A DNA stretch of 64,000 bases from Clostridia bacterium (GTDB lineage Bacteria > Bacillota > Clostridia > Oscillospirales > CAG-272), in NCBI GenBank assembly GCA_017540175.1, contig JAFYBN010000113.1:34573-98572 (forward strand), read 5' to 3'. Positions 50,998-62,972 of this stretch are shown piece by piece; the first letter of the stretch is position 1; every line of letters starts with the position of its first letter. A model generated the notes under the pieces. That model was not told the DNA's origin. It searched no databases and worked only from the letters and a program-made list of their open reading frames with translations. The position numbers were made by a program, and so were the translations under genes.

Positions 50998-51026
50998 TTG
51001 ATTATGAATATGCCGACAACCATAAT
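50998..51026 (+). promoter_or_regulatory. Promoter for the repeat/CFI-box protein
   Basis: TTGATT, a 17-base spacer and CATAAT, about 58 bases before the ATG at 51085. Confidence 0.6.
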
Positions 51027-51084
51027 AATCACAGCAAACCGGAAACGTCCGTTGAGGGAGCAGCGCACGGAAGGGAGGACAACG

Positions 51085-51711
51085 ATGGGAAAGAGCGGGC
51101 GGAGCGAACCAAACTTTTGGGGAGGCTATACCCATTACGATTCAAACGGAAAGAAAATCGGCAGCAGCGAACCCGGACTGTTCGGAGGGTTCATAGACTA
51201 TGATGCCAAAGGCCATAGAATCGGCCGCACCGATCCCGGGCTCTTTGGCGGCTATATGCACTACGACATCAAAGGTCACAGGACCGGAACCAGTGATCCC
51301 GGCCTCTTCGGGGGATACACCCATTATGACAGCAAGGGTCATAAGATCGGCTCGAGCGATCCTGCCCTCTTCGGATCGATTCGTCACAGCTCATCTCCGA
51401 ACGCAAACTTCTCCGACTCGAGTTCCGCCAGCACCTCCGGCAATCAGGGCTGCTATATCGCCACCTGCGTTTACGGCTCCTACGATTGTCCTGAGGTCTG
51501 GACGCTGCGTCGGTTCCGGGACGATTCTCTCGCAAAAACAAGCTTTGGCAGAGCCTTCATCAAAGTATATTACGTGATCAGCCCTCAGCTTGTGGTTCGT
51601 TTTGGCGATTCAGTTTGGTTCAAATCCATATGGAAGAAATATCTGGACCATATCGTTTGTCGACTTCACAAAAAGGGCGTTTCCTCCGCACCATACGCCG
51701 ATCGGTACTAA
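51085..51711 (+). CDS. Tandem-repeat protein with CFI-box C-terminal domain
   Basis: A 208-aa protein. Residues about 8-97 are four near-identical 23-residue repeats of the form DPGLFGGYTHYDSKGHKIGS. A short Ser-rich linker follows. The last 80 residues begin GCYIATCVYGSYDCPEVWTL and continue RRFRDDSLAKTSFGRAFIKV, matching the CFI-box-CTERM domain (usual form CFIATAVYGSPxxPEVxxLRRFRD). The function of that domain is unknown. There is no signal peptide. GGGAGGAC precedes the ATG. The repeats are 69 bp long at DNA level and could change in number. Confidence 0.85.
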   Translation: MGKSGRSEPNFWGGYTHYDSNGKKIGSSEPGLFGGFIDYDAKGHRIGRTDPGLFGGYMHYDIKGHRTGTSDPGLFGGYTHYDSKGHKIGSSDPALFGSIRHSSSPNANFSDSSSASTSGNQGCYIATCVYGSYDCPEVWTLRRFRDDSLAKTSFGRAFIKVYYVISPQLVVRFGDSVWFKSIWKKYLDHIVCRLHKKGVSSAPYADRY

Positions 51712-52887: not shown

Positions 52888-53376
52888 TCAGAAGACCTCT
52901 TCACGATAGATCCCTCCGGGATAATCTTCGAAAACGACATGTTTTCCATGCAAGCCCATCTGAATCCACTTTTGCAGCAGATCGCTGCCGAACCCGTGGC
53001 ATTGCACGTTTTCAACCAACCATTCCTCGATATTCGCTTTTATTTCTGCCCAAGGGTGAGGGATCATACTTATAAAAGCCTTTGCATTATCAGTGTCAAG
53101 ATAATAACGATACTCAAAATCGTTTCCGTCAAACTCGCTGTCGTCTTCATAAAATACTATAGTAAGGCTAAAGTCATCTTGTAACCTCACACTAACAGTA
53201 TACAGATTGACTTTTCTTCTTGCTTCACGCCAAGTAGTCATCATACAGGCTTTTGCAGTTGTGGAGGTTTTTTCCGCTTCTATCAAAGCGCTTGCTTCTT
53301 CGAGGGTGAGCTTGCCATAAGCCCACATAAAGCCTTCGGTACTCGAAAACTGATTCCTGAATTCAGAATAAGTCAT
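52888..53376 (-). CDS. Hypothetical protein, 162 aa (island)
   Basis: Not recognised. A mixed alpha/beta, acidic protein beginning MTYSEFRNQFSSTEG. The centre has alternating strands (VNLYTVSVRL, LTIVFYED) and a Trp-rich C-terminal half. No signal peptide or membrane helix. GGAAAGG immediately precedes the ATG, and the longer frame has no better RBS. Last gene of the promoter P1 unit. It resembles the size and acidity of bacterial immunity proteins, but that is only inference. Base composition is less GC-rich than the rest of the island. Confidence 0.65.
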   Translation of the reverse strand: MTYSEFRNQFSSTEGFMWAYGKLTLEEASALIEAEKTSTTAKACMMTTWREARRKVNLYTVSVRLQDDFSLTIVFYEDDSEFDGNDFEYRYYLDTDNAKAFISMIPHPWAEIKANIEEWLVENVQCHGFGSDLLQKWIQMGLHGKHVVFEDYPGGIYREEVF

Positions 53377-53470
53377 CCTTTCCTTCTCCTTCCCTGCACA
53401 CTCGTCTCTGATTTGCGTCCACTCCGGAATGAGCCGGCTCCGCGTGCTCGTCACCGGGTTCGTTTACCAA

Positions 53471-53902
53471 TCATTCGCCGCGCGGAGGACCCGGGACGAT
53501 CGTTACGTCGGATGTGTCATTTACGAGGCTGCAAATCGGATATCCGAACGATCCGTCGCCGCGGATCGCACCGTACAGCTTTTCAAGGAAAAACTCCACC
53601 CACACTTCATCGGGAAGCTCGGCGTCGGGCGTCTGTCTGACAAACCACACCCTTGTCGCGGGTTCGTTTGTCCTCGGATAGATCCCGATTCCCAAAACGA
53701 CGTCGTAAAAATCAAACGACGCTTCAAAGGCGACGATTTTGTCGTCCCGATCCTGAATAAGCTCGACCCCTTCGGGGAGTTCTGCAGCGTCGATCATCAT
53801 TCTCCCCTTGACCGCCCCGTTTGCTTCTTCCCATTTCCTGAAAGAGTCCTGAGAACGAATGAATTCTTCCACCTTCTGAAACAATTCCGGATTCGATAAC
53901 AT
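53471..53902 (-). CDS. Hypothetical protein, 143 aa (island)
   Basis: Not recognised. A compact acidic alpha/beta protein with KIVAFEASFDFYDVVLGIGI in the middle, VWFVRQTPDAELPDEVWVEF after it, and a Pro/Gly-rich C-terminus. No signal peptide or membrane segment. The region around its start has no copy of the island promoter, so it is probably read through from P1. The start codon has only a weak RBS (AGGAAGG). Confidence 0.65.
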   Translation of the reverse strand: MLSNPELFQKVEEFIRSQDSFRKWEEANGAVKGRMMIDAAELPEGVELIQDRDDKIVAFEASFDFYDVVLGIGIYPRTNEPATRVWFVRQTPDAELPDEVWVEFFLEKLYGAIRGDGSFGYPICSLVNDTSDVTIVPGPPRGE

Positions 53903-54010
53903 TTTTCTGCCTTCCTCTCTTGAAAAGGATTGTGTATGCCGGCAATACGGCTCTGCTTCACATCTTACCGCACGCCGCGCTCCGTTTCACGGAAAAAAAG
54001 ATGCGAATTC

Positions 54011-54538
54011 TCAAATCGGCGGGTTTTCAGCGGAAGATCCGTCCCCGGCCTCTCCTTCTCCGGCGCGGGAAGGACGCTGCCCCGCGTTCGTCATCCGATT
54101 GTACTCGTTCAGGATTTTCCACGGATAAATCACCGCTCCTTCGATCAGCGCGGGGCCGTCTTCCGCGCCGACGGCGATATTGACCGAAAAGAATTCCTCG
54201 CCCTTCGGATTTGTGAATTTCCCGATCTCCGCGGTCTGATATCCGCCCTGAGGAAAGCTGAAATATCCGACGTCGAGAAACCTCATCGTCAGCTCGTCCG
54301 GGGTACTCTGCTCGATCCCCTTCTTCGAGACGAAGAGCGTCAGCATCGTGACCCCGTCCGCCGCCCAGCATTCGGCGAAATACGGCCGGTCCGGCTCAAG
54401 CAGTCCGGCGTTCCATCCGATGTTCACGTCGCCGAATTGATTCCGGCGCGGGACCTCTTCCGTGTGGTCATACATCGGCAGGTACTTTCCGGGGTTCGCG
54501 CGCACTTCTTTGATCAGGTCAAGTCCTTCGGGATTCAT
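54011..54538 (-). CDS. Hypothetical protein, 175 aa (island)
   Basis: Not recognised. Residues 1-145 look like a globular alpha/beta domain (VNIGWNAGLLEPDRPYFAEC, VTMLTLFVSKKGIEQ), followed by a disordered Arg/Gly/Glu tail. No signal peptide. It starts 15 bases after the stop of the preceding island protein, with an AAGGAGG RBS in that gap, so the two are co-translated. An immunity-like role is possible but unproven. Confidence 0.7.
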   Translation of the reverse strand: MNPEGLDLIKEVRANPGKYLPMYDHTEEVPRRNQFGDVNIGWNAGLLEPDRPYFAECWAADGVTMLTLFVSKKGIEQSTPDELTMRFLDVGYFSFPQGGYQTAEIGKFTNPKGEEFFSVNIAVGAEDGPALIEGAVIYPWKILNEYNRMTNAGQRPSRAGEGEAGDGSSAENPPI

Positions 54539-54553
54539 CGTAGTCCTCCTTGA

Positions 54554-55639
54554 TCAGCCGTTTGATCTTGTTGTTCCGAGCTTCTCCTCAAGTACGGCAG
54601 CGATCTCCGCCGCCGTTCTGCCTCTTTGCGAAATCTCCCGGTGTTCCCGCTCCGCGGCGGTGGTTTCCGCGGCTTCTATGTCGGTGACCATGTCAAGGAT
54701 ATCGCCGATCCTGTCCTCCGGGAAAAACGGGAAATCCTCCAGATCGACCTTCATCTCCGCCGCAAGAAACGCGATCTGCGCGTCGGTCATGGGGAGAATG
54801 TACTCCTGAATCGTATTCCCCGTGATTTTTCCGCGGAGCACGTCCGCCTCCATGCCTTCCAGAATCTCAATCTCCTGTATTATGTTCGGGTAGAATGATT
54901 TATCCCCGACTCCGAGAAAGTGTCCCCGTACGGATGAGATCCAGCCGGGAGCCCTCACGGTGTATTCTTCGATCCGCCCTTCATAACGGGCGCACAGACC
55001 GGTATTCCGGCAAGTCAGACGGACATACGAACCCAGAGCGTCGCATATCCTGTCCGCCATGTTTTCGTCCGGCTCGCTTTCGGAATAATCCTCCTCTTCG
55101 TCTTCGTCACAGTCCGGGTCGGCCATGTCCGCGTATTCGCTTTCGGGATAAACCTCCCCGATCTCCCCGAAAAGCCACGCGGACCCGGAAACGATATATC
55201 CCTTTTCGATCTCACCGTCGTATTCGAGAAACAGGGAAAACTCAAAGCCCAGTGTTTCAATCAGGATACAACAGTTCGGCTCTCCCGGCTCGCTGTCGGG
55301 ATTCCATTGAACATCGAGCACCTGACCGGTAAATATCACGTCCGCCGACGGTCTGAATGTATCCTCATTTCCGGGAACGGAAAATGTACCAACGGGAATG
55401 AGACTCTTTTCATAAAAACCGGTTCCGGCTTCATAAAACGCTTTCGCCTCCGGATATACCTGAATATCACCGGTTACACCGGCAACGTTGATTTCACATT
55501 CACGGTCTTTCAGATCGGGGAATTCATCGTCGTTGTCGATATGAATATTGAGTGGGATTTCGTTCATATCCGTCGTACAAACGTGCGCCATTCTGCCTTC
55601 TTCGTAATCGATATAGTCGTAAAAGAAAAACTTGCTCAT
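54554..55639 (-). CDS. Island protein A1, 361 aa, with shared helical C-terminal module
   Basis: Not recognised as a named family. It begins MSKFFFYDYIDYEEGRMAHV and continues IPLNIHIDND. The same start is seen in the broken paralog at 58883-59930, so this is a family with two members here. The N-terminal 270 residues are acidic and beta-rich, with an extreme Asp/Glu run near 175-195. The last 75 residues form a helical module, MTDAQIAFLAAEMKVDLEDF ending TAAEIAAVLEEKLG, that recurs in the protein at 58374-58886. First gene of promoter P1. Confidence 0.75.
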   Translation of the reverse strand: MSKFFFYDYIDYEEGRMAHVCTTDMNEIPLNIHIDNDDEFPDLKDRECEINVAGVTGDIQVYPEAKAFYEAGTGFYEKSLIPVGTFSVPGNEDTFRPSADVIFTGQVLDVQWNPDSEPGEPNCCILIETLGFEFSLFLEYDGEIEKGYIVSGSAWLFGEIGEVYPESEYADMADPDCDEDEEEDYSESEPDENMADRICDALGSYVRLTCRNTGLCARYEGRIEEYTVRAPGWISSVRGHFLGVGDKSFYPNIIQEIEILEGMEADVLRGKITGNTIQEYILPMTDAQIAFLAAEMKVDLEDFPFFPEDRIGDILDMVTDIEAAETTAAEREHREISQRGRTAAEIAAVLEEKLGTTRSNG

Positions 55640-55727
55640 ACGGTTCCCCCTTCCCGTTCCTTCCGAAATTCCATGCTTCTCTCCGTGACCGTTTTCGCAG
55701 ATGCCCTCCTGTTTCCCTTACGCGTTC

Positions 55728-55771
55728 AGTATATCACCGAGCATAGTCCAAAAATCGGACGGGTGACCTCT
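55728..55771 (-). promoter_or_regulatory. Island promoter P1
   Basis: On the minus strand ACCCGTCCGATTTTTGGAC, then 12 bases, then TATACT (55733-55728). It drives the 54554-55639 gene and those after it. It has the same layout as P2-P4, with the conserved block where a -35 box would sit. Confidence 0.75.
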
Positions 55772-55810
55772 TTTTCCGTTTTTCACCGACAGGTCCGACC
55801 GGGGATGCGT

Positions 55811-56620
55811 TCAAAGCTTCCGCGGTTCTCTTCTGAAAGTCTCAAACCGCTCGAGGACCTCCCGCATATCCCGGGGCAGGCGGCGCATTCCCTCCGCGGC
55901 GATCTCTTCGGGAACTCCGTAGAACGCCTCCGCGATCCCGCCGGCGATGCAGGTCAGGGTGTCGCAGTCGCCGCCTAAAGAAACCGCCGTGCGGATTACG
56001 TCCTCGAAGTCTTCGCCCTCGAGAAACGCCGTGATCGCCTCCGGAACGGTCTTCTGACAGGTTTCGACGTGGAAGTACCCCGGGCGGATCTCATCACAGG
56101 TGCGGGAGAGATCATAACCGAATTCCCCGACGATGTAGTCCCTGATCTCCTTTTTCGTCTTCCCCGTCCGCGCCAGAAAGATCGCACTCGCCGCCGCCTC
56201 CGCGCCCTTGATCCCTTCGGGGTGGTTGTGCGTGACCTCCGCGGTGAGCCGCGCGATATGCCTTGTCTCCTCAAGCGTATCGTACAGCCATCCGGCGGAA
56301 GACACCCGCATCGCGGAGCCGTTTCCGAAACTCCCGTATGGTTTCGGATCCTTTGCCCGCAGCCACTGATAGAACATGCCCCCATATCCGGCATAGGGAT
56401 ACCGCCCGCCCCATTTCCGCATGGAGGACACGAGCGCGGCCCGGATCTTTTCGTCGCTTTTTCCGAGACTGTGTGTCAGCGCATCCGCCACGGCGACCGT
56501 CATGGCGGTATCGTCCGTAAAACCGGACTCCGGGCCGAACAGCGGGAAATCCTTCGTTTTATCGCCTCTGTCAAATTCGTAGGGCGCGCCGATCATGTCG
56601 CCCAAAATCGCTCCGATCAT
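55811..56620 (-). CDS. ADP-ribosylglycohydrolase family protein
   Basis: A 269-aa DraG/ARH-type hydrolase that removes ADP-ribose from proteins or other acceptors using two Mg ions. The motifs are GAILGDMIGAPYE at the start, SGFTDDTAMTVAVADAL (metal Asp pair), SFGNGSAMRVS, THNHPEGIKGA, and SLGGDCDTLTCIAGGIAEAF (C-terminal metal Asp). All key acidic residues are present, so it should be active. Last gene of the P2 unit. Its place beside an alarmone-hydrolase-like protein and a WYL regulator suggests defence or repair against ADP-ribosylation. Confidence 0.93.
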   Translation of the reverse strand: MIGAILGDMIGAPYEFDRGDKTKDFPLFGPESGFTDDTAMTVAVADALTHSLGKSDEKIRAALVSSMRKWGGRYPYAGYGGMFYQWLRAKDPKPYGSFGNGSAMRVSSAGWLYDTLEETRHIARLTAEVTHNHPEGIKGAEAAASAIFLARTGKTKKEIRDYIVGEFGYDLSRTCDEIRPGYFHVETCQKTVPEAITAFLEGEDFEDVIRTAVSLGGDCDTLTCIAGGIAEAFYGVPEEIAAEGMRRLPRDMREVLERFETFRREPRKL

Positions 56621-56679
56621 GTTTTCGTCTCCTTCTTTTGGTTAGATGGTTTGAGTGTGCTTATCTGTGAAACGGGCCG

Positions 56680-56997
56680 TCATTCATCCAGCGAGATGCT
56701 GTACCCGATCCCGTGCTCATCGCAGAAACGGCTGAATCCGAAACAGTTTTCAGGGTCGTCGAAAAAGCTTGGGAGCTCTTCCGAGGGATCGTCTTTGGCG
56801 CCTGTCGCGGCAAGCAGCTTTTCGACTTCTTCCCCCTCGATCGTATAGCTGTACGTATAGCTCTCGCCTTCGCCTATCGGGTCCACGAACTCGGTATGGC
56901 AGCCGAAGTGCCTTCCGTCCGCAAGCCACGCCCAGATCCTGACGTCTTCGACCTCGTCGCCGACCACTTTGATTGTAAGATCGATAGAAGCCTTCAT
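56680..56997 (-). CDS. Hypothetical protein, 105 aa (island)
   Basis: Not recognised. It is very acidic, with a beta-rich first half (MKASIDLTIKVVGDEVEDV, YTYSYTIEGEEVEKLL) and a loop-rich second half. AGAGGAGG lies 4-5 bases before the ATG, a strong start. It lies between the beta-propeller-like protein and the ADP-ribosylglycohydrolase in the P2 unit. The size fits a small partner or immunity-type protein. Confidence 0.7.
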   Translation of the reverse strand: MKASIDLTIKVVGDEVEDVRIWAWLADGRHFGCHTEFVDPIGEGESYTYSYTIEGEEVEKLLAATGAKDDPSEELPSFFDDPENCFGFSRFCDEHGIGYSISLDE

Positions 56998-57027
56998 AAA
57001 TCCTCCTCTTTTTTATGTGATACAAAT

Positions 57028-58176
57028 TCAAATCCCCGCCCGATCCAGATCGAACAGCCAGAGCGCGCCGTCCTTGTTGAATACGAACCGCGAACCGTAA
57101 AACACCGGGAAGCCGAACGCTCCGCAGTCGAGCGGGTCTTCCTTGCCGGGGAGATGGCTGAAATCCAGCTTTCCGAGAGCGAGATACCGGTTGTCCTTTC
57201 TGAACATCAGATACATCCGGTTCTCGCAGGCGCCGCTCTGATAGGAAACCGCCATCAGGTTCCCGTTTGACGAGACCCCGAACGCGCTGAAGCCGTGATA
57301 CGCGCTCTCAAACGTCTGCGCTTCCTTTCCCTCTCCCATCCGGACGATTTTTCCGGACGGCATCAGATGCGCCCACGCGGCGCCGCCCGAGTCAAGGGTC
57401 AGCGCGGCGCATTCCAGCTCCTCCGGCGCTTTCAGACCTCCGGCGTAGCTTCCGTCGTTCAAATCCCAAAACGCGACGGGGGTTTTCTCCCGGTCGAGAT
57501 CGTTGTGAGCATACGACGCGGCGATCATGCCGTCCGGGAACTGCAGGACCTCTCTGACATAGGGGGCGATCTTGAACTGCCCTTCGTCGTTCGACGGGAC
57601 CATGGGCAGAACGGTCCACATCCCGTCCTCTTTGCCGCTGACCTTCACCACGGCGAGAATGCCCTCTCCGTCCGGCGTGGACAGGACCGTCCGAACATCC
57701 GTGTCCTGACCATGGAACGCGAATCGCTTTATGATCTCCATGGTGCACAGATCAAAGACCAAAACGCGGAACCGGTTCAGGACGTGCGCCGCTTCGACGC
57801 GTCCTTCATATACCTCGTCGTCCGCCTCGAAAATGAGCGCCAGCCGGTTTCCGGGCAAAAATGCCGGGGAGTGAAAATGCCAGGGCTCCGCGCTTTCCTG
57901 CTCGAAGGAAAACCCCTCGTTCCATTCGCTCTGCCATCCGCGGATGATTTCGGAGACGTCCGCGACCATCCGGAAGGGGAGCTGAACGGAAACATCCCCG
58001 TACGCGTGAAACGGAAATACCGGCAGCTCCCGTTCCGCCGCGTCCTCCGCCGCATCCTCTGCCGCGTCAGCCTTGTCCCCCTCGTCCGCCTTGTCCGGGA
58101 CGGCAAGCTCTTCTTCGTCCGTTACCATCTCGCCGCCTTCATTCGGTTCTTCGTCGAAAATTCTGTTCTCTTTCAT
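57028..58176 (-). CDS. Island protein, 382 aa, beta-propeller-like
   Basis: Not assigned to a family. After an acidic, Ala/Glu/Asp-rich N-terminal 50 residues, the protein shows repeated strand-loop units such as NRFRVLVFDLCTMEIIKRFA, DTDVRTVLSTPDGEGILAVV, PVAFWDLNDGSYAGGL and GAFGFPVFYGSRFVFNKDG, the pattern of a WD40- or YVTN-like propeller. No signal peptide. AAAGGAG lies 8 bases before ATG 58176. First gene of promoter P2 and probably a scaffold or sensor for that unit. Confidence 0.75.
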   Translation of the reverse strand: MKENRIFDEEPNEGGEMVTDEEELAVPDKADEGDKADAAEDAAEDAAERELPVFPFHAYGDVSVQLPFRMVADVSEIIRGWQSEWNEGFSFEQESAEPWHFHSPAFLPGNRLALIFEADDEVYEGRVEAAHVLNRFRVLVFDLCTMEIIKRFAFHGQDTDVRTVLSTPDGEGILAVVKVSGKEDGMWTVLPMVPSNDEGQFKIAPYVREVLQFPDGMIAASYAHNDLDREKTPVAFWDLNDGSYAGGLKAPEELECAALTLDSGGAAWAHLMPSGKIVRMGEGKEAQTFESAYHGFSAFGVSSNGNLMAVSYQSGACENRMYLMFRKDNRYLALGKLDFSHLPGKEDPLDCGAFGFPVFYGSRFVFNKDGALWLFDLDRAGI

Positions 58177-58228
58177 AAACTGCGCTCCTTTCGTACTCTG
58201 CATGGTTTCTCGTTTTCCTTACGCGCAC

Positions 58229-58273
58229 AGTATAACACACGAGAATGGACAAAAAACGGATCGGTTGAACTCT
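58229..58273 (-). promoter_or_regulatory. Island promoter P2
   Basis: On the minus strand ACCGATCCGTTTTTTGTCC, then 12 bases, then TATACT (58234-58229). Upstream of the block lies AGAGTTCA, resembling the upstream parts of P1 and P3. Confidence 0.8.
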
Positions 58274-58373
58274 ATTTGTTTACATGTCCAACGACTGATG
58301 CCACGCGGGCATAGAACCTGCCGCCCGCTCTTCACGGACGGTATTTGATTTCGGAGCGGAAGAACGACGCCGG

Positions 58374-58886
58374 TCAATCAAGGCCGCAGCCGCGCCCTTC
58401 CCAATACGTTCGGATAACCTCCCCTACCTTCGTGACAACGGACGATGCGAGCTCCCCGCGCGCAGAAAGCGGCGAAATGCCTGCCTCTTCGATCTCGTCG
58501 GCTTCTATAAATCCGACCTTGTCGTATAAATCACTCAGATCCTGTTCCGAGGCAGATTCGATCCAGTTTCGATCCGCAGAGAATTCCGCCGCAAGGAACG
58601 ACAACTCTTCCTCCGTTAAAGCGAGGAATGCTTCCCTGATTTTCGGTCCGTTGTCTTCGTCCCCTATGATTTTTCCCGCTTTGCGCAGATCTTCTTCCGA
58701 GCCTTCCGTAATCTCAAATAATTCCGCGTCATACAGATAGTCCTCGTCGCTGTCGTCGACGACGCGGTATAAGCCATATTCCTTGCTGAGTATTTCGTAT
58801 ACTTTACCGTGCGTCAGGCACAGGGGTTCCGTATTTCCGAGCCATTTTGCTTTCAATTTCTGATACCTCCGTTCCGAAAGGTTCAT
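58374..58886 (-). CDS. Island protein, 170 aa, with shared helical C-terminal module
   Basis: The first 70 residues form a small SH3-like beta domain (LTHGKVYEILSKEYGLYRVV, YLYDAELFEI). Residues 85-165 are the helical module shared with the 54554 gene: LTEEELSFLAAEFSADRNWI, then QDLSDLYDKVGFIEADEIEE and GELASSVVTKVGEVI. The start overlaps the end of the upstream frame by 4 bases (ATGA). Last gene of the P3 unit. Function unknown. Confidence 0.75.
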   Translation of the reverse strand: MNLSERRYQKLKAKWLGNTEPLCLTHGKVYEILSKEYGLYRVVDDSDEDYLYDAELFEITEGSEEDLRKAGKIIGDEDNGPKIREAFLALTEEELSFLAAEFSADRNWIESASEQDLSDLYDKVGFIEADEIEEAGISPLSARGELASSVVTKVGEVIRTYWEGRGCGLD

Positions 58887-59930
58887 TCCCGGTATTCTTG
58901 TCTCTCGGTTTTCGTTTCATGATCCGCATCGGAGATCCGCATGCTCAGGGCTGAAAGAATATCCGCCGCAGTCTTTTGCCGGGAAAAGATCGTAATGTTA
59001 TCCGCGTTGTTAGCCGCCTCTTCGGCCTCTGTATCGGAAATCATTTCATATAATTCACCGGTCCTGTCTTTGGGAAGAAACGGAAGGTCTTCATACCCGT
59101 CTCCCCGGCTATCCATGAAATCCGCGCATCGGTCAGCAGGGAAAGAAACTCCTTTATCGTATCTCCCGCAATTTCCCCCTGACGATTTCGGCTTCTGTCC
59201 CTCCGAGGAGCTCTATTTCACGAATCTCGTCTTCATAATAGAAGGTCGGCCCTCCGTGGATAAAGCAGCCCGCTATGAAGGAAAACCCCGTTCGGTCGGA
59301 ATCGCCTCTGTGTGTATAACTGTCGATATGTCCTTCGTCCGCATCGTTGTTCCAGTCCGTGATACGAACGCAGGACCCGCTCCAATCACACAACTTGTCA
59401 TCGATCGAATCGCTTGCCGTGTGCGTGCGCTTTCTGCGCGGACCTTTCCCCGTAAGCTCTCCATAGAGCCATGCCATACCCGAAACGATGTCTCCTTCGT
59501 TTGCTTCATCTTCGTATCGGAGCCAGAGGGAGAACTCAAACCCCAGGGTTTCAATGCGAAGACAGCAGTTCGGTTCGTCTTTTTCGCCGCAGAGGTCCCT
59601 GCGAACTCCAAGGATTTTCCCGGTAAACAGAATATCTGCGGAAGGCTCAAACATATCCTCATAAACAGTCATCGGGAAAGTCCCGATCGGAATCAGGCTT
59701 GGCATGGCAAAATGGGTTCCCGACTCATAATAAGCCTCTTCCGAAGGAAAGACTTTGATTTCCTCCGTGACGCCGCAGACCTCGATTTCACAGGGTCCCT
59801 CCTTCAGACCGCAGAACAAGTCGGCGTTATCGATATGGATATTCAGCGGGATCCTATCGCCGACCGTATAAACATGCGCCATTTGTCCGTCTTCGTAATC
59901 AATAAAGCCCTCGAAATTGAATTTGCTCAT
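58883..59930 (-). pseudogene. Island protein A2 (paralog of A1), broken by two one-base deletions
   Basis: The N-terminal frame (59154-59930) begins MSKFNFEGFIDYEDGQMAHV and is clearly paralogous to the 54554 gene. It stops early because a G run (five C at 59175-59179 on the plus strand) is one base short; restoring it gives EIAGDTIKEFLSLLTDARIS. A second shift near 59103-59106, again in a G run, leads to the frame 58883-59116 (EDLPFLPKDRTGELYEMISD), which matches the shared helical module. Repaired, it is about 345 aa. Both breaks are in homopolymers, so the gene may be whole in the real genome. Confidence 0.75.
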
Positions 59931-60046
59931 ACGATCGCTCCCTTGTCCCCCGCTTTGTAATCTTCTTTTATGAAAGGATTCGGCAAGACCGCGGTTCTGC
60001 CGATGCGCTCCCGGCGGTATCTCCGAGCCGGGTCGTCCTCCGATTT

Positions 60047-60403
60047 TTAGTACCAGAATACCTTCCCTTCTGCAGGCGCCTCGCCGCTGCGAATGCAGTC
60101 CCCAATATAATCCACAGCATGATCTCCGTATGTTATTTTGTGAACCGGCTCCGTGGTCATTTCAACAAAGTCCGTTCCTCCGGCTTCGCGTTCCATCTCG
60201 TTGATGGCTTCTGCCATTTCATTAAGTTCTTCCGGGGAGATATCCCGTTCGTAGTCTTCCGGGGCGACCTCGGTAATTTTGATTCTTCTTTTTGCCATAT
60301 CTACGAGAATCACGCCGTGCCCTTTGTCCTCCTCCCCTTCCACGAAATACCAATAAGTGAGCATATGCTGCTCGGATTCTTCTATCAATCGGAACGTCAC
60401 CAT
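60047..60403 (-). CDS. Hypothetical protein, 118 aa (island)
   Basis: Not recognised. It shows strands MVTFRLIEESEQHMLTYWYF and HGVILVDMAKRRIKITEV, then an acidic helix EELNEMAEAINEMERE and a C-terminal DYIGDCIRSG. ATG at 60403 with AGGTG seven bases upstream is preferred to a GTG two codons earlier. Second gene of the P3 unit after the HD protein. Confidence 0.7.
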   Translation of the reverse strand: MVTFRLIEESEQHMLTYWYFVEGEEDKGHGVILVDMAKRRIKITEVAPEDYERDISPEELNEMAEAINEMEREAGGTDFVEMTTEPVHKITYGDHAVDYIGDCIRSGEAPAEGKVFWY

Positions 60404-60460
60404 AATCACACACCTGTTTTTCTCTCAATTTCAGAGAACCCGTCGAATTCTCATATCAGC

Positions 60461-61078
60461 TCAAGCCTTCTCCGGGAACACCTTGTCGAGCAGCTCCGCA
60501 TATTCCATATACGCCGCCGTGTCCGCCAGGGCCGCGCATGTTTCCCTGAAGCTCCCGTAATACCACCCGATCTCCCCGGGGTCCTTCTGGTTGAACCGCT
60601 CCCAGAGCTTTTCGCCCACGGCGCGGTGATCCCGGTAAATCGCCCTGAGATTCGAGAGCTTGTCGGCAAGGGCGAGGATCTTCACGTCCCTGTCGTCACA
60701 GTGCCTCAGGTGTTCGATCGTCTCGCTCTTGCGAATCTGCCACGTGTCCTCCGCCGCCTGCTCTTCCCGCTTGTTTTCGCTCTCGGCGGCAACAAGCTCC
60801 GCGACGCGGGACCCGAATTCCTTCTCGATCTGTTCGCGCGTCGCGTCCGTGTCCTCCACCGTATCGTGGAGCACGGCGGCTGCGATCACCTCCGGATCAG
60901 CTGTCATGCCCGCCGCGATCGCCGCGGCCTCCATCGGGTGTACGATATAGGGGATTTCGGTCCCCTTGCGCACCTGCCCGTCATGGGCGCGGGCGGCGAA
61001 CGTCACGGCTTTCGTGACAAGGCTCGTGTCGTGCTTCTTTTCTTTGCTTTCCTGTTTCAGAATCGCTTTGTTTTCCAT
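60461..61078 (-). CDS. RelA/SpoT-type HD hydrolase (small alarmone hydrolase-like)
   Basis: A 205-aa stand-alone HD domain. Motifs are FAARAHDGQVRKGTEIPYIV then HPMEAAAI (His-His), VLHDTVEDTDATRE (HD and ED) and ALADKLSNLRAI, the pattern of SpoT hydrolase and MESH1-like enzymes that remove pyrophosphate from (p)ppGpp with Mn. There is no synthetase domain, so it could only degrade alarmones such as (p)ppGpp or (p)ppApp. The ATG at 61078 lies about 55 bases after promoter P3. Its promoter's upstream block overlaps the WYL gene's stop codon. It is the first gene of the P3 unit. Confidence 0.88.
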   Translation of the reverse strand: MENKAILKQESKEKKHDTSLVTKAVTFAARAHDGQVRKGTEIPYIVHPMEAAAIAAGMTADPEVIAAAVLHDTVEDTDATREQIEKEFGSRVAELVAAESENKREEQAAEDTWQIRKSETIEHLRHCDDRDVKILALADKLSNLRAIYRDHRAVGEKLWERFNQKDPGEIGWYYGSFRETCAALADTAAYMEYAELLDKVFPEKA

Positions 61079-61141
61079 ATTCGTTTTCCTTTCTTTTTCG
61101 TTTCCGGCGGCCGAGCCGTCCTTTTCTCATCTTACGGGACC

Positions 61142-61185
61142 ATTATATCACACAACCGAGGTCAAAAAACGGATCGGTAGAGTTC
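61142..61185 (-). promoter_or_regulatory. Island promoter P3
   Basis: On the minus strand ACCGATCCGTTTTTTGACC, then 12 bases, then TATAAT (61147-61142). It lies in the 105-base gap between the WYL gene and the HD gene. Confidence 0.82.
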
Positions 61186-62212
61186 AATCTTTTTGCGGCG
61201 GCATGTTCCGGTAAACCTCGTGCTCCTCTTCATATACGCCCAGCGCCGCGCGCAGCCTGTCCCTCACGCCGTCCCGGATATGCTCCGGAGATATGACCTT
61301 TAAGTTCTCCGCGTGCTCCATCAGCCAGCCGTACAGACCCTTGTTCTCGTTGGTCTTGATCCTGCACCGGATCCGATCGGTGTCGAACTGTTCGATGACG
61401 GCGTTGTCGCCGAACGCGTCGAGCACGGTATCCGTCATGTCCTCAAAACCTTCCAGCTCGATCAGCACGCGCTTGCCGCTCGTGGCGTAAATATTCTCGT
61501 CGATATAGTTCCTCAGCCCTTTCTCCCCGTTCGGAAGAAGCTCGTCCAGCGGCACGGCGGGGACGTTCTCTAAGATTTCAAGCTTGTGGATCCGGTCCAG
61601 CCGGTAGTAGGAGAACGGCGCCGCGCCCGACCAGTTGCCGATCAGGTAGTATTTGTCGTGCTGCCAGATCAGGGCGTATGGGCTGACCGGTTCCGTTTTC
61701 TTGCTGTGCCGGAACTTCGTGGCCATATCCCCGCCCGTATAGGTGTAGAGAAAATGAACCTTGCAGCGCTTGCGGATCGCGTGGAGGAGCGTTTCGATGT
61801 GATTCTTTGTCTCGCCTTCTCCGCGCTTGATCGAGGAAGGCGACTTCGGCACGGCGGCAAGCGTCTGAGCGCTCGCGTCGCTTGCCAGCGCGGACAGCCG
61901 CTGTACCAGGCCGTCCGTCTGACTCCGGGTCAGAAAGTTCGCGCTTTGCACCGCGTCGATCAGGATCTTCAGCTCCCAGTCCTCAAAGTCCCGGCTTCCG
62001 AGGAAAACGCCGGTTTTGTTGTCGGGGCACTTCAGAATATCCATGCCGTAGTCGGTCAGCGCTTCGATATCCCGCAGCACGGCTTTCCGGTCGCAGCTCA
62101 AGCCGACGGAATCGAGCCGCGCGACGATTTGGGCGGAGGTAACGGGGTGATCCTCGTCGGTTGCCAGAAGAATATCCCTCACGCGGAGGAAACGTTCGCG
62201 GTTGTCGTTCAT
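61184..62212 (-). CDS. WYL-domain transcriptional regulator
   Basis: A 342-aa regulator. Residues 1-80 form a DeoR-type winged helix-turn-helix (TSAQIVARLDSVGLSCDRKAVLRDI pattern, in two pieces). The WYL domain spans about 155-245: AHDKYYLIG-like QHDKYYLIGNWSG and FSYYRLDRIHKLEIL, with the expected Arg-Leu-Asp-Arg-Ile. About 250-330 is the WCX-type C-terminal domain. WYL domains sense nucleic acid ends or nucleotides and often control phage-defence loci. AAAGGAG precedes ATG 62212. P4 lies directly upstream, so it is likely autoregulated, and P1-P3 share its site. Confidence 0.92.
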   Translation of the reverse strand: MNDNRERFLRVRDILLATDEDHPVTSAQIVARLDSVGLSCDRKAVLRDIEALTDYGMDILKCPDNKTGVFLGSRDFEDWELKILIDAVQSANFLTRSQTDGLVQRLSALASDASAQTLAAVPKSPSSIKRGEGETKNHIETLLHAIRKRCKVHFLYTYTGGDMATKFRHSKKTEPVSPYALIWQHDKYYLIGNWSGAAPFSYYRLDRIHKLEILENVPAVPLDELLPNGEKGLRNYIDENIYATSGKRVLIELEGFEDMTDTVLDAFGDNAVIEQFDTDRIRCRIKTNENKGLYGWLMEHAENLKVISPEHIRDGVRDRLRAALGVYEEEHEVYRNMPPQKD

Positions 62213-62242
62213 TTCGGAGACTCCTTTCCTGAATCTGAATAT

Positions 62243-62287
62243 AGGATAGCATATAACGCGGGACAAAAAAGGGACCGGTTACAGTTT
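62243..62287 (-). promoter_or_regulatory. Island promoter P4 (upstream of the WYL regulator gene)
   Basis: On the minus strand ACCGGTCCCTTTTTTGTCC, then 12 bases, then TATCCT (62248-62243). The leader to ATG 62212 is only about 25 bases. Confidence 0.75.
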
Positions 62288-62318
62288 ATGTCAAAACGGA
62301 GGGTTTGTCAAGTCTTTT

Positions 62319-62972
62319 TTAGAATTGCTGCTGATAACGACCGACAACAAAACCATTCTTCACATTTTCTTTGATCTGCGGATGGGTTGAATATCTTAAT
62401 AATCCATGCTCCTTCAGATATGACAACGCCCTTGCCGTCTGATTGATGTTATACCGACTTGCCCAATTTGCGCAGCCGATCCCTTTTCCTTCAGCAAGTT
62501 TTGCCTGAACATCAATTAGGAGGCTGATCTGCTGTGTCTTCGTTCTTGAATAGGTTTGATGCTTTCGCGTTCCGGCTATCACCGTTTTGAGAATTTCTAC
62601 AGAATATCCCTCTCCGAGCGTATCCATCCGAATAAATCGTTTTTGATCCCTCCCGCGCAAAGCCGGTTCCCCGTGTTCCCGGATTTCATATCCCATTTGG
62701 CGAAGCATTTCCAAGAGTTCCAAAAAAGTCTTTGGGAGTGCGGCATCGATTGCCTTACAAATCTGCTCTCTGCGGGAAGCTATCCGTGTTTCGCCCTGCC
62801 ATACATCATAGGTCTTCCCTTTTCGTTTTGGATGTTCCACGATTGAGTATCCGTTTTCTGCACATATCGTATCGTTAAGCCGCTTCATGGCTCGTGCAGA
62901 GCCGAGGAAATCTCGGAATTTGCGAGTACAGTCCAGCGTCGTGGAATTTATAATGATATGGTTGTGAATATA
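62319..62972 (-). pseudogene. Relaxase (mobilisation nuclease) remnant
   Basis: The frame is open from 62972 to a stop at 62319, without the N-terminal part of a relaxase. It begins IHNHIIINSTTLDCTRKFRD, matching the third HUH-type histidine region and following strand of Clostridia relaxases (usual form HLHNHxxINSxSLDxxRKF). It continues LNDTICAENGYSIVEHPKRK. The tyrosine active site and the first part of the HUH motif are lost. A start near 62888 would give 189 aa. The DNA is AT-rich compared with its neighbours. It marks the right border of the island as mobile DNA. Confidence 0.75.

Follow-up and report, generated by a model that had tools for sequence, protein, structure and literature searches.

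When examining a 64,000-nucleotide stretch of DNA from a Clostridia bacterium of the CAG-272 lineage (JAFYBN010000113.1, positions 34,573-98,572; hereafter, the window), we observed an island of genes at positions 52888..62287 in which four apparent promoters, P1 to P4, carry copies, three of them exact, of a 19-base-pair (bp) block at one and the same distance upstream of the -10 hexamer; the gene behind P4 encodes a WYL-domain regulator. The reading to which we lean, if only slightly, is that the island constitutes a self-contained regulon, in which the WYL protein would act as an activator at the block and switch on genes for the removal of nucleotide-type modifications. The features that suggest this are features of the sequence, namely, the block itself, its fixed spacing, its restriction to the island within the genome, its conservation with a clade of WYL proteins, the lack of a -35 element at the hexamer 12 bases away, and the enzyme families encoded in the island.

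The consensus block, ACCGNTCCNTTTTTTGNCC, is matched exactly at P2 (ACCGATCCGTTTTTTGTCC, 58247..58265, on the minus strand, as are the other promoters and all island genes), at P3 (ACCGATCCGTTTTTTGACC, 61160..61178) and at P4 (ACCGGTCCCTTTTTTGTCC, 62261..62279), and with three mismatches at P1 (ACCCGTCCGATTTTTGGAC, 55746..55764); the original prediction, according to which all four have the block, was correct for the first three and overstated for P1. The spacing of exactly 12 bases to a TATAMT-like hexamer, also part of that prediction, holds at all four promoters, with TATACT at P1 (55728-55733) and P2 (58229-58234) and TATAAT at P3 (61142-61147), but the hexamer of P4 is TATCCT (62243-62248); the coordinates originally given for the promoters are the 3' ends of these hexamers. 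As noted previously, 30 bases separate the P4 hexamer from the ATG of the WYL gene (62212). The right half of the block can be read as a repeat of the left in two ways, direct (at 11 bases) and inverted. Matches to the block with at most three mismatches number six in the window, compared with 0.81 expected, a count reached in none of 100 shuffled sequences; two of the six (40859 and 46668) fall outside the island. Judging from gene order, the promoters would head four transcription units across 52.9-62.2 kilobases (kb).

Within its genome, the block is island-specific. The 3.9-megabase assembly, 93.5% complete, contains 66 matches with at most three mismatches, of which the three exact ones all belong to the island; four others have two mismatches, and at none of these was a -10 hexamer at +12 seen by eye. 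A pattern that admits P1, followed by 12 bases and TATNNT, gave 14 matches with at most three mismatches, with P1-P4 as the only zero-mismatch sites and a next-best match that has two mismatches and a poor -10. The absence of a fifth copy, first claimed for the window, is thus borne out across the assembly, and the full-genome motif search that had been proposed as a test excludes, for an assembly of this completeness, that the motif is a common promoter type elsewhere.

The regulator encoded behind P4 (342 amino acids (aa), 61184..62212) matches the WYL (3.5e-8) and WCX (4.1e-8) families of Pfam, with a weak N-terminal HTH_11 match (0.017) under the cut-off of that family; the Pfam scan of 13 island proteins brought up no other WYL protein. 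A profile was built from five WYL proteins, namely, this one and four others that are 73, 39, 36 and 39% identical to it. At 1e-75, the profile yielded seven matches in 391 genomes of the class, three of them in the clade (from the genome of the window and from genomes G147 and G372); in the genus of G147, it found eight genes in 7 of 19 genomes, and in viral contigs, one match with 38% identity, a second, at 28%, having been set aside. The clade is rare at an E value of 1e-90, with representatives in 1 of 398 genomes of a phylum sample (the genome of the window), 7 of 40 of the family of G147 and 1 of 206 of the family of G372. In a tree of 45 WYL proteins (control locus L053, for which there was no row, was left out), the block-bearing members fell within a single clade of 14 (support 97/80) apart from the 31 other homologues. 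Clear blocks are present at 10 of the 14 clade loci, in the window and in L068, L069, L077, L067 and L061 before the WYL gene, and in L079, L092, L093 and L094 before the gene that follows it. Moreover, a pattern made of the block alone found 11 sites in 9 of the 13 other clade loci, and all 11 have TATNNT at exactly 12 bases, a motif with starts at 0.2% of the window's positions and at 0.66% of those in the clade loci. In the 19 genomes of the genus of G147, the exact 16-mer ACCTGTMCCAAATTTG occurs three times, each time within about 0.7 kb or less of a clade WYL gene; overall, matches to the 16-mer in this genus number 113, compared with 106 for the reversed pattern. Two further features of clade loci are worth recording. 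In L067 (7500-7620), divergent promoters with one block each lie between a UDG-like gene and an AAA/M41 protease-like gene. In the genus of G147, the genes behind the block and after the WYL gene (L092:7863-8885, L093:8240-9262, L094:3388-3987 and L079:6464-7555) encode related proteins with the motif MKTAKLVxGIISMVLS and, in the one member scanned, no Pfam family.

The nearest relative of the regulator comes from G018, the only one of the 24 other genomes of the genus to encode an orthologue (73% identical). The order there (locus L061) is block and WYL gene, then block and an orthologue of the 382-aa protein encoded behind P2 (68% identical over 324 residues), then an ADP-ribosyl-glycohydrolase, with a spacing of 12 at the blocks; the second block (L061:6198) has one mismatch and corresponds to P2. 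The glycohydrolase of G018 is distant from that of the window (15.8 bits) but closely related, at 204-206 bits, to those encoded in L069 and L077, again downstream of clade WYL genes.

Taken together, the recurrence of the block with the same WYL clade in other Clostridia and its confinement to the island at home support the claim that the block belongs with the WYL genes, and make it highly probable that the WYL protein is the cognate factor of the block. It is improbable that the block is instead read by another factor, such as an alternative sigma factor or an unlinked regulator, with the WYL gene a mere member of the regulon. Binding of the WYL protein to the block is a prediction, the WYL gene itself lies downstream of a block, and some clade WYL loci have no clear block, all of which would fit such a factor; against it, the -10 hexamers resemble TATAAT, the block is not found elsewhere in the genome, unlike what a sigma-factor regulon would display, and the block and the WYL clade co-occur in several Clostridia families while the neighbouring genes change.

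Apart from the block, GTAAG is common to P1, P2 and P3 at bases 7-11 after the -10 (55717-55721, 58218-58222 and 61131-61135, minus strand); it is present also at the promoter of G018 that corresponds to P2 (L061:6241-6245) and missing from both WYL promoters, that of the window and that of G018. The shared GTAAG, along with the paralogy of the genes at 59154-59930 and 54554-55639, could point to P1-P4 being recent duplicates of one promoter devoid of regulatory meaning. We regard this as very improbable, given that the 12-base spacers have diverged while the block and the -10 were kept, and that other genera have the block amid unrelated flanks.

For quantitative scoring, 19 seed sites were gathered by loose patterns, three of them (L079wyl, L082 and L083) by eye; they align without gaps over 19 bases, with ACCTGTMCCAAATTTGKCC as the best form outside the genus of the window, and each matrix was trained on sites from outside the group being tested. 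With the matrix from other genera, P1-P4 occupy ranks 1-4 in the window at 16.1-18.0 bits, the next position scoring 1.2; the maxima of 30 first-order random sequences averaged 7.0 bits, with a highest value of 14.6. When the 19-base block alone was scored, P4 ranked first, P1 third, P2 sixth and P3 tenth among 127,964 positions, so that a few chance sites score as high as P1-P3. The candidate sites of L082 and L083 (9.6 and 11.6) and of L087 (6.6) are not significant.

The position of the block bears on its mode of action. If the hexamer at 12 bases represents -12 to -7, the block would cover about -43 to -25. The strongest sites of a block-only matrix have the spacing of 12, but three block-like sites at 14.2-15.1 bits (L079, L090 and L091) do not. 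Relative to this hexamer, none of the seed sites has a -35 element, with at most two of the six TTGACA positions matched at 16-18 bp. An activation mechanism with a sigma contact is favoured by the fixed spacing combined with the lack of a -35, and the island sites have the features of a WYL activator site, that is, a location upstream of the -10, a reach to about -26 and no -35, with an alternative pair at P4 described below. Given the pairing of regulator and site, activation appears fairly probable.

Two published WYL activators offer parallels; these and the other comparisons with the literature made here draw on excerpts of the papers concerned. SiwR of Mycobacterium smegmatis uses an imperfect palindrome of 19 bp that lies upstream of the -10, and the -26 region is required (PMC10693628). 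Like the WYL protein of the window with its predicted targets and site, it is encoded beside its targets and has a 19-bp site upstream of the -10 that involves the -26 region, needed by SiwR and reached by the block; the SiwR palindrome, however, extends from the -10 to the -35 region, whereas the island block ends 12 bases before the -10, and the SiwR targets, DinB-like genes, are unlike the island. PafBC, which acts from -26 by sigma adaptation (PMC11804915), shares with the island a WYL factor, sigma-A promoters and an unusual element around -26 where a -35 would otherwise lie; as a difference, the clade profile matches a PafBC structure only weakly (6sj9, E value 3.4e-4). DriD activates through other contacts, as far as its description in the excerpt goes. 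From these features, we infer a mechanism in which the WYL protein would bind the block at about -43 to -25, in place of the -35 element, and would then help the housekeeping RNA polymerase to initiate at P1-P3 as well as at P4, the promoter of the WYL gene, probably standing in for the contact between -35 and sigma, as in the sigma adaptation of PafBC. The trigger may be a nucleotide-type ligand filling the WYL domain, and the genes switched on, for the ADP-ribosyl-glycohydrolase, the alarmone-type HD hydrolase and their acidic partners, would remove nucleotide-type modifications or signals, conceivably to reverse ADP-ribosylation or toxic nucleotides that come from phages or rivals.

Several observations weigh against this reading. 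The seeds from other genera were initially chosen by a window-like pattern, because of which scoring was repeated at 14 pattern-free positions alone, with the eye-picked seeds removed; P1-P4 then fall in the top 1.0, 2.5, 3.9 and 1.1%, respectively, which is supportive but modest. Among 28 control loci of generic WYL homologues (24-33% identical, 108 kb), two reach 17.0 and 16.9 with the matrix trained without the genus of the window, above P1-P3 taken singly; the best control scores were 16.8, 14.3 and 12.3 with the all-seed matrix, and 20.7 when the g121 group was kept out of training. In a locus of 4 kb, one score of less than about 20 is therefore no proof. The block pattern finds no match in 4 of the 13 other clade loci (L089, L090, L091 and L095), and their best matrix scores (9.6, 11.6, 15.6 and 8.4) are within random maxima. 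In the genus of G147, the exact 16-mer is present in just three of the seven genomes with a clade WYL gene, and there are 11 copies with a single mismatch away from such genes. At P4, the end of the block and a later hexamer form an ordinary pair, TTGTCC-N17-TATATT, with 9 of 12 matches, and in the block-only matrix scan the best hexamer by its letters is this TATATT, at a spacing of 17. PafBC is, per its excerpt, a heterodimer of the DNA-damage response, and the island has one WYL gene. When 10 of the 13 island proteins (all except those of 120, 77 and 105 aa) were scanned with PADLOC, only WYL models and a marginal GajA match (0.024) came up. Finally, an extended -10 (TGn), which is able to work without a -35, precedes the hexamer at 14 of the 19 sites, so that repression would be feasible as well.

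The last point is at the core of the strongest competing view, to which we assign a lesser but substantial chance, namely, that the WYL protein is a cognate repressor: the extended -10 promoters would fire without a -35, and the protein at -43 to -25 would exclude the polymerase until a ligand released it. At P4, an ordinary sigma-A-type promoter, TTGACA-N17-TAAACT (62283..62311, minus strand, 10 of 12 matches), ends three bases before the block, and a protein on the block would obstruct both this promoter and the TTGTCC-N17-TATATT pair; upstream of the WYL gene of G018, no counterpart of TTGACA-N17-TAAACT was seen by eye. Repression would also agree with the precedents of BrxR (PMC9122601) and CapW (PMC9122588), WYL regulators that are encoded beside defence genes, as in the clade, where the relative in L090 adjoins PglZ and BrxL, and with the negative regulators predicted for ADP-ribosyl-glycohydrolase systems (PMC9503650). 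However, as described in these excerpts, the BrxR site lies downstream of the -10 and the CapW site overlaps it, neither being at -43 to -25, whereas the block is upstream at all four island sites and ends 12 bases before the -10; the comparison with BrxR/CapW-type sites suggested originally thus revealed a different arrangement. Furthermore, a repressor site needs no fixed phase, yet the spacing is 12 at all 11 sites found by the block pattern outside the window and all four inside it, and 5 of the 19 sites lack TGn. The proposal that the block replaces a normal -35 is therefore sustained for the 12-base hexamer and complicated by the overlapping pair at P4, and the suggestion of activation rather than repression is favoured by position, with the extended -10s and the P4 pair pulling the other way.

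Among the genes behind the block, the originally named families, an alarmone-hydrolase-like HD protein and an ADP-ribosyl-glycohydrolase, were confirmed. The P3 unit starts with an HD hydrolase of the small-alarmone-hydrolase type (205 aa, 60461..61078; HD_4, 6.5e-27), the matches of which in the Protein Data Bank (PDB) are MESH1/RelA-type chains (7qoe, 4.8e-25), and continues with proteins without assigned function: a 120-aa acidic protein (60047..60409) with no Pfam family above the cut-off; a 258-aa protein (59154..59930) that is 46-51% identical to the N-terminal three quarters of its 361-aa paralogue at 54554-55639; a 77-aa open reading frame (ORF; 58883..59116) that matches the C-terminal part of the same paralogue; and a 170-aa acidic protein (58374..58886) that resembles the C-terminal part of the 361-aa protein and matches phrog_34144 at residues 11-61. 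The 258-aa and 77-aa ORFs (58883-59930) together correspond to much of the 361-aa paralogue, so the gene looks split. The P2 unit encodes an acidic protein of about 382 aa (57028..58176), the one with a G018 orthologue behind the block and with no Pfam, PDB, phage or plasmid match; a 105-aa acidic protein (56680..56997) with no Pfam family; and the ADP-ribosyl-glycohydrolase (269 aa, 55811..56620; PF03747, 2.8e-38), which matches ADP-ribosylhydrolase chains in the PDB from 4.8e-17 and aligns over TDDT and GGDxDT, which we take to be motifs of these enzymes. The P1 unit consists of four acidic proteins, namely, the 361-aa protein (54554..55639), very acidic and without a Pfam family; a 175-aa protein (54011..54538) with no Pfam or PHROG family; a 143-aa protein (53471..53902) with no Pfam family and one PHROG at 0.088; and, last, a 188-aa protein (52888..53454) with no significant family. 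Relatives of the first 160 residues of the 361-aa protein turned up in two of the other 393 genomes of the order, where a pattern scan found no block beside them; no homologues of this protein were found in plasmids or viral contigs. Acidic residues outnumber basic ones in all 10 island proteins counted (those other than the WYL, 258-aa and 77-aa proteins), by 8 to 53, the latter in the 361-aa protein, in agreement with the acidity originally noted for the unassigned proteins.

This gene content resembles conflict systems that have been predicted before, in which an ADP-ribosyl-glycohydrolase is combined with a WYL or Nudix regulator and an alarmone-type HD phosphatase (PMC9503650). According to the excerpt, these would be host systems that undo viral ADP-ribosylation, with variable partners, a coupled phosphatase that may be rhodanese-type, calcineurin-like or alarmone-type HD, a peptide-binding chaperone (vWA, SseB or TY-Chap) and predicted negative regulators. 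The island shares with them a glycohydrolase without a transferase family, a WYL regulator, an alarmone-type HD phosphatase, which in the island belongs to the P3 unit and does not adjoin the glycohydrolase, and variable partners. No ADP-ribosyltransferase or sirtuin family was found by Pfam in the 13 island proteins, among the unassigned members of which a remote one could hide. In the island proteins, Pfam gave no match to a rhodanese phosphatase nor, among the unassigned members, to a chaperone domain. The island differs in other respects: the lineages named in the excerpt include actinobacteria, planctomycetes and proteobacteria and the island is Clostridial; and the island has four promoters with one operator, in a position that argues for activation, against the repression predicted there. 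Thus, the label of an undescribed system needs qualification, since this kind has been predicted, whereas the shared operator and the Clostridial setting are new in the literature searched (open-licence papers, without bioRxiv preprints), in which no description of this operator was found; equally new by this measure are the location of the operator over the -35 and the fact that it recurs, together with a WYL clade, next to other defence genes.

In other clade loci, a PARG-type hydrolase gene adjoins the WYL gene (L067) and glycohydrolase genes lie within about 1.5 kb (L061, L069 and L077); in L068, further genes separate the WYL gene from one for an HD protein that is related to that of the window (48 bits), at a distance of about 3.4 kb. 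A PADLOC scan at 1e-5 of proteins chosen by hand, and so no measure of enrichment, from eight clade loci outside the genus (L067, L069, L089 and L095 being left out) gave matches in all eight, or in seven if the weak nuclease match of L093 (1.1e-8) is discounted: KwaA and KwaB (L068); an AbiLi-like ATPase (L077); Cas5, 6, 7 and 8 of type I-B (L079); PglZ, BrxL and AbiE (L090); JetC along with DUF262-type matches (HEC-06/Orf5 models) (L091); a type I methyltransferase (L092); and BrxP and SspB models (L094). L090 and L091 have these defence neighbours, but their blocks are not significant. By analogy with these relatives, a conflict or defence role of the island is on balance probable; the idea of a stress or immunity system draws on the relatives' neighbours and the enzyme families, and is tempered by the lack of a known defence effector in the PADLOC-scanned island proteins.

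The contig from a viral collection that contains L077 (2186-9666) encodes, along with the clade WYL protein, an ADP-ribosyl-glycohydrolase homologue, the AbiLi-like ATPase and a protein with weak similarity to DUF4365. Viral contigs scanned with window-type and ACCTRTMCC-type patterns gave no match, and a pattern derived from L069 and L077 was found in its source contig and in no other. Directly upstream of the island, a 189-aa ORF (62319-62888, minus strand) is a part-match to plasmid relaxase/mobilisation nucleases (34%, 1e-24) and is, perhaps, a conjugative-element remnant at the island edge. On the other side, a protein with EPGLFGGYxHYDxKGH-type repeats and no Pfam family is encoded at 50998-51711 (plus strand). 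A flanking FGase gene was sought, as a test for an empty site, in the 24 other genomes of the genus and matched none at 1e-20, and no tRNA gene is present in the 64-kb window.

A sister group of WYL proteins (34-37% identical) may use an altered form of the block. Its loci L081, L096, L097 and L098 score 14.8, 6.0, 9.4 and 20.6, and AACTGTACTGATTTTAGTA and AGCTGTACTACTATTAGTA are each found 12 bases 5' of TATAAT (L081:7039-7075 and L098:2960-2996). Without the -10, CTGTACT...TAGTA occurs in two places only in 795 kb of loci (overlaps included), right after the WYL gene in L081/L073 and about 1 kb before it in L098/L076. This block with TACT/AGTA halves, recognized post hoc in two of the four loci, is a lead.

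How bacteria hold their immune genes off until these are needed is an open question in the field, and BrxR and CapW, in the excerpts cited, are both repressors. It is possible, and we advance this tentatively, as short of an even chance, that the Clostridial WYL group embodies a portable promoter code for conflict genes, that is, a 19-bp substitute for the -35 at an invariant 12 bases, linked to its regulator and amounting to sigma adaptation outside Actinobacteria. If so, the same block would stand beside unrelated modules, such as ADP-ribose removal, Kiwa, CRISPR type I-B, restriction and BREX neighbours, and the altered block of the sister group may extend the code further. With an operator that can be mapped and that lies where the -35 would be, the clade would allow a direct test of WYL activation in Clostridia, and the block could serve to flag uncharacterised conflict genes, of whatever kind lies behind it. 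The island described here is a concrete candidate for the predicted systems that would undo ADP-ribosylation.

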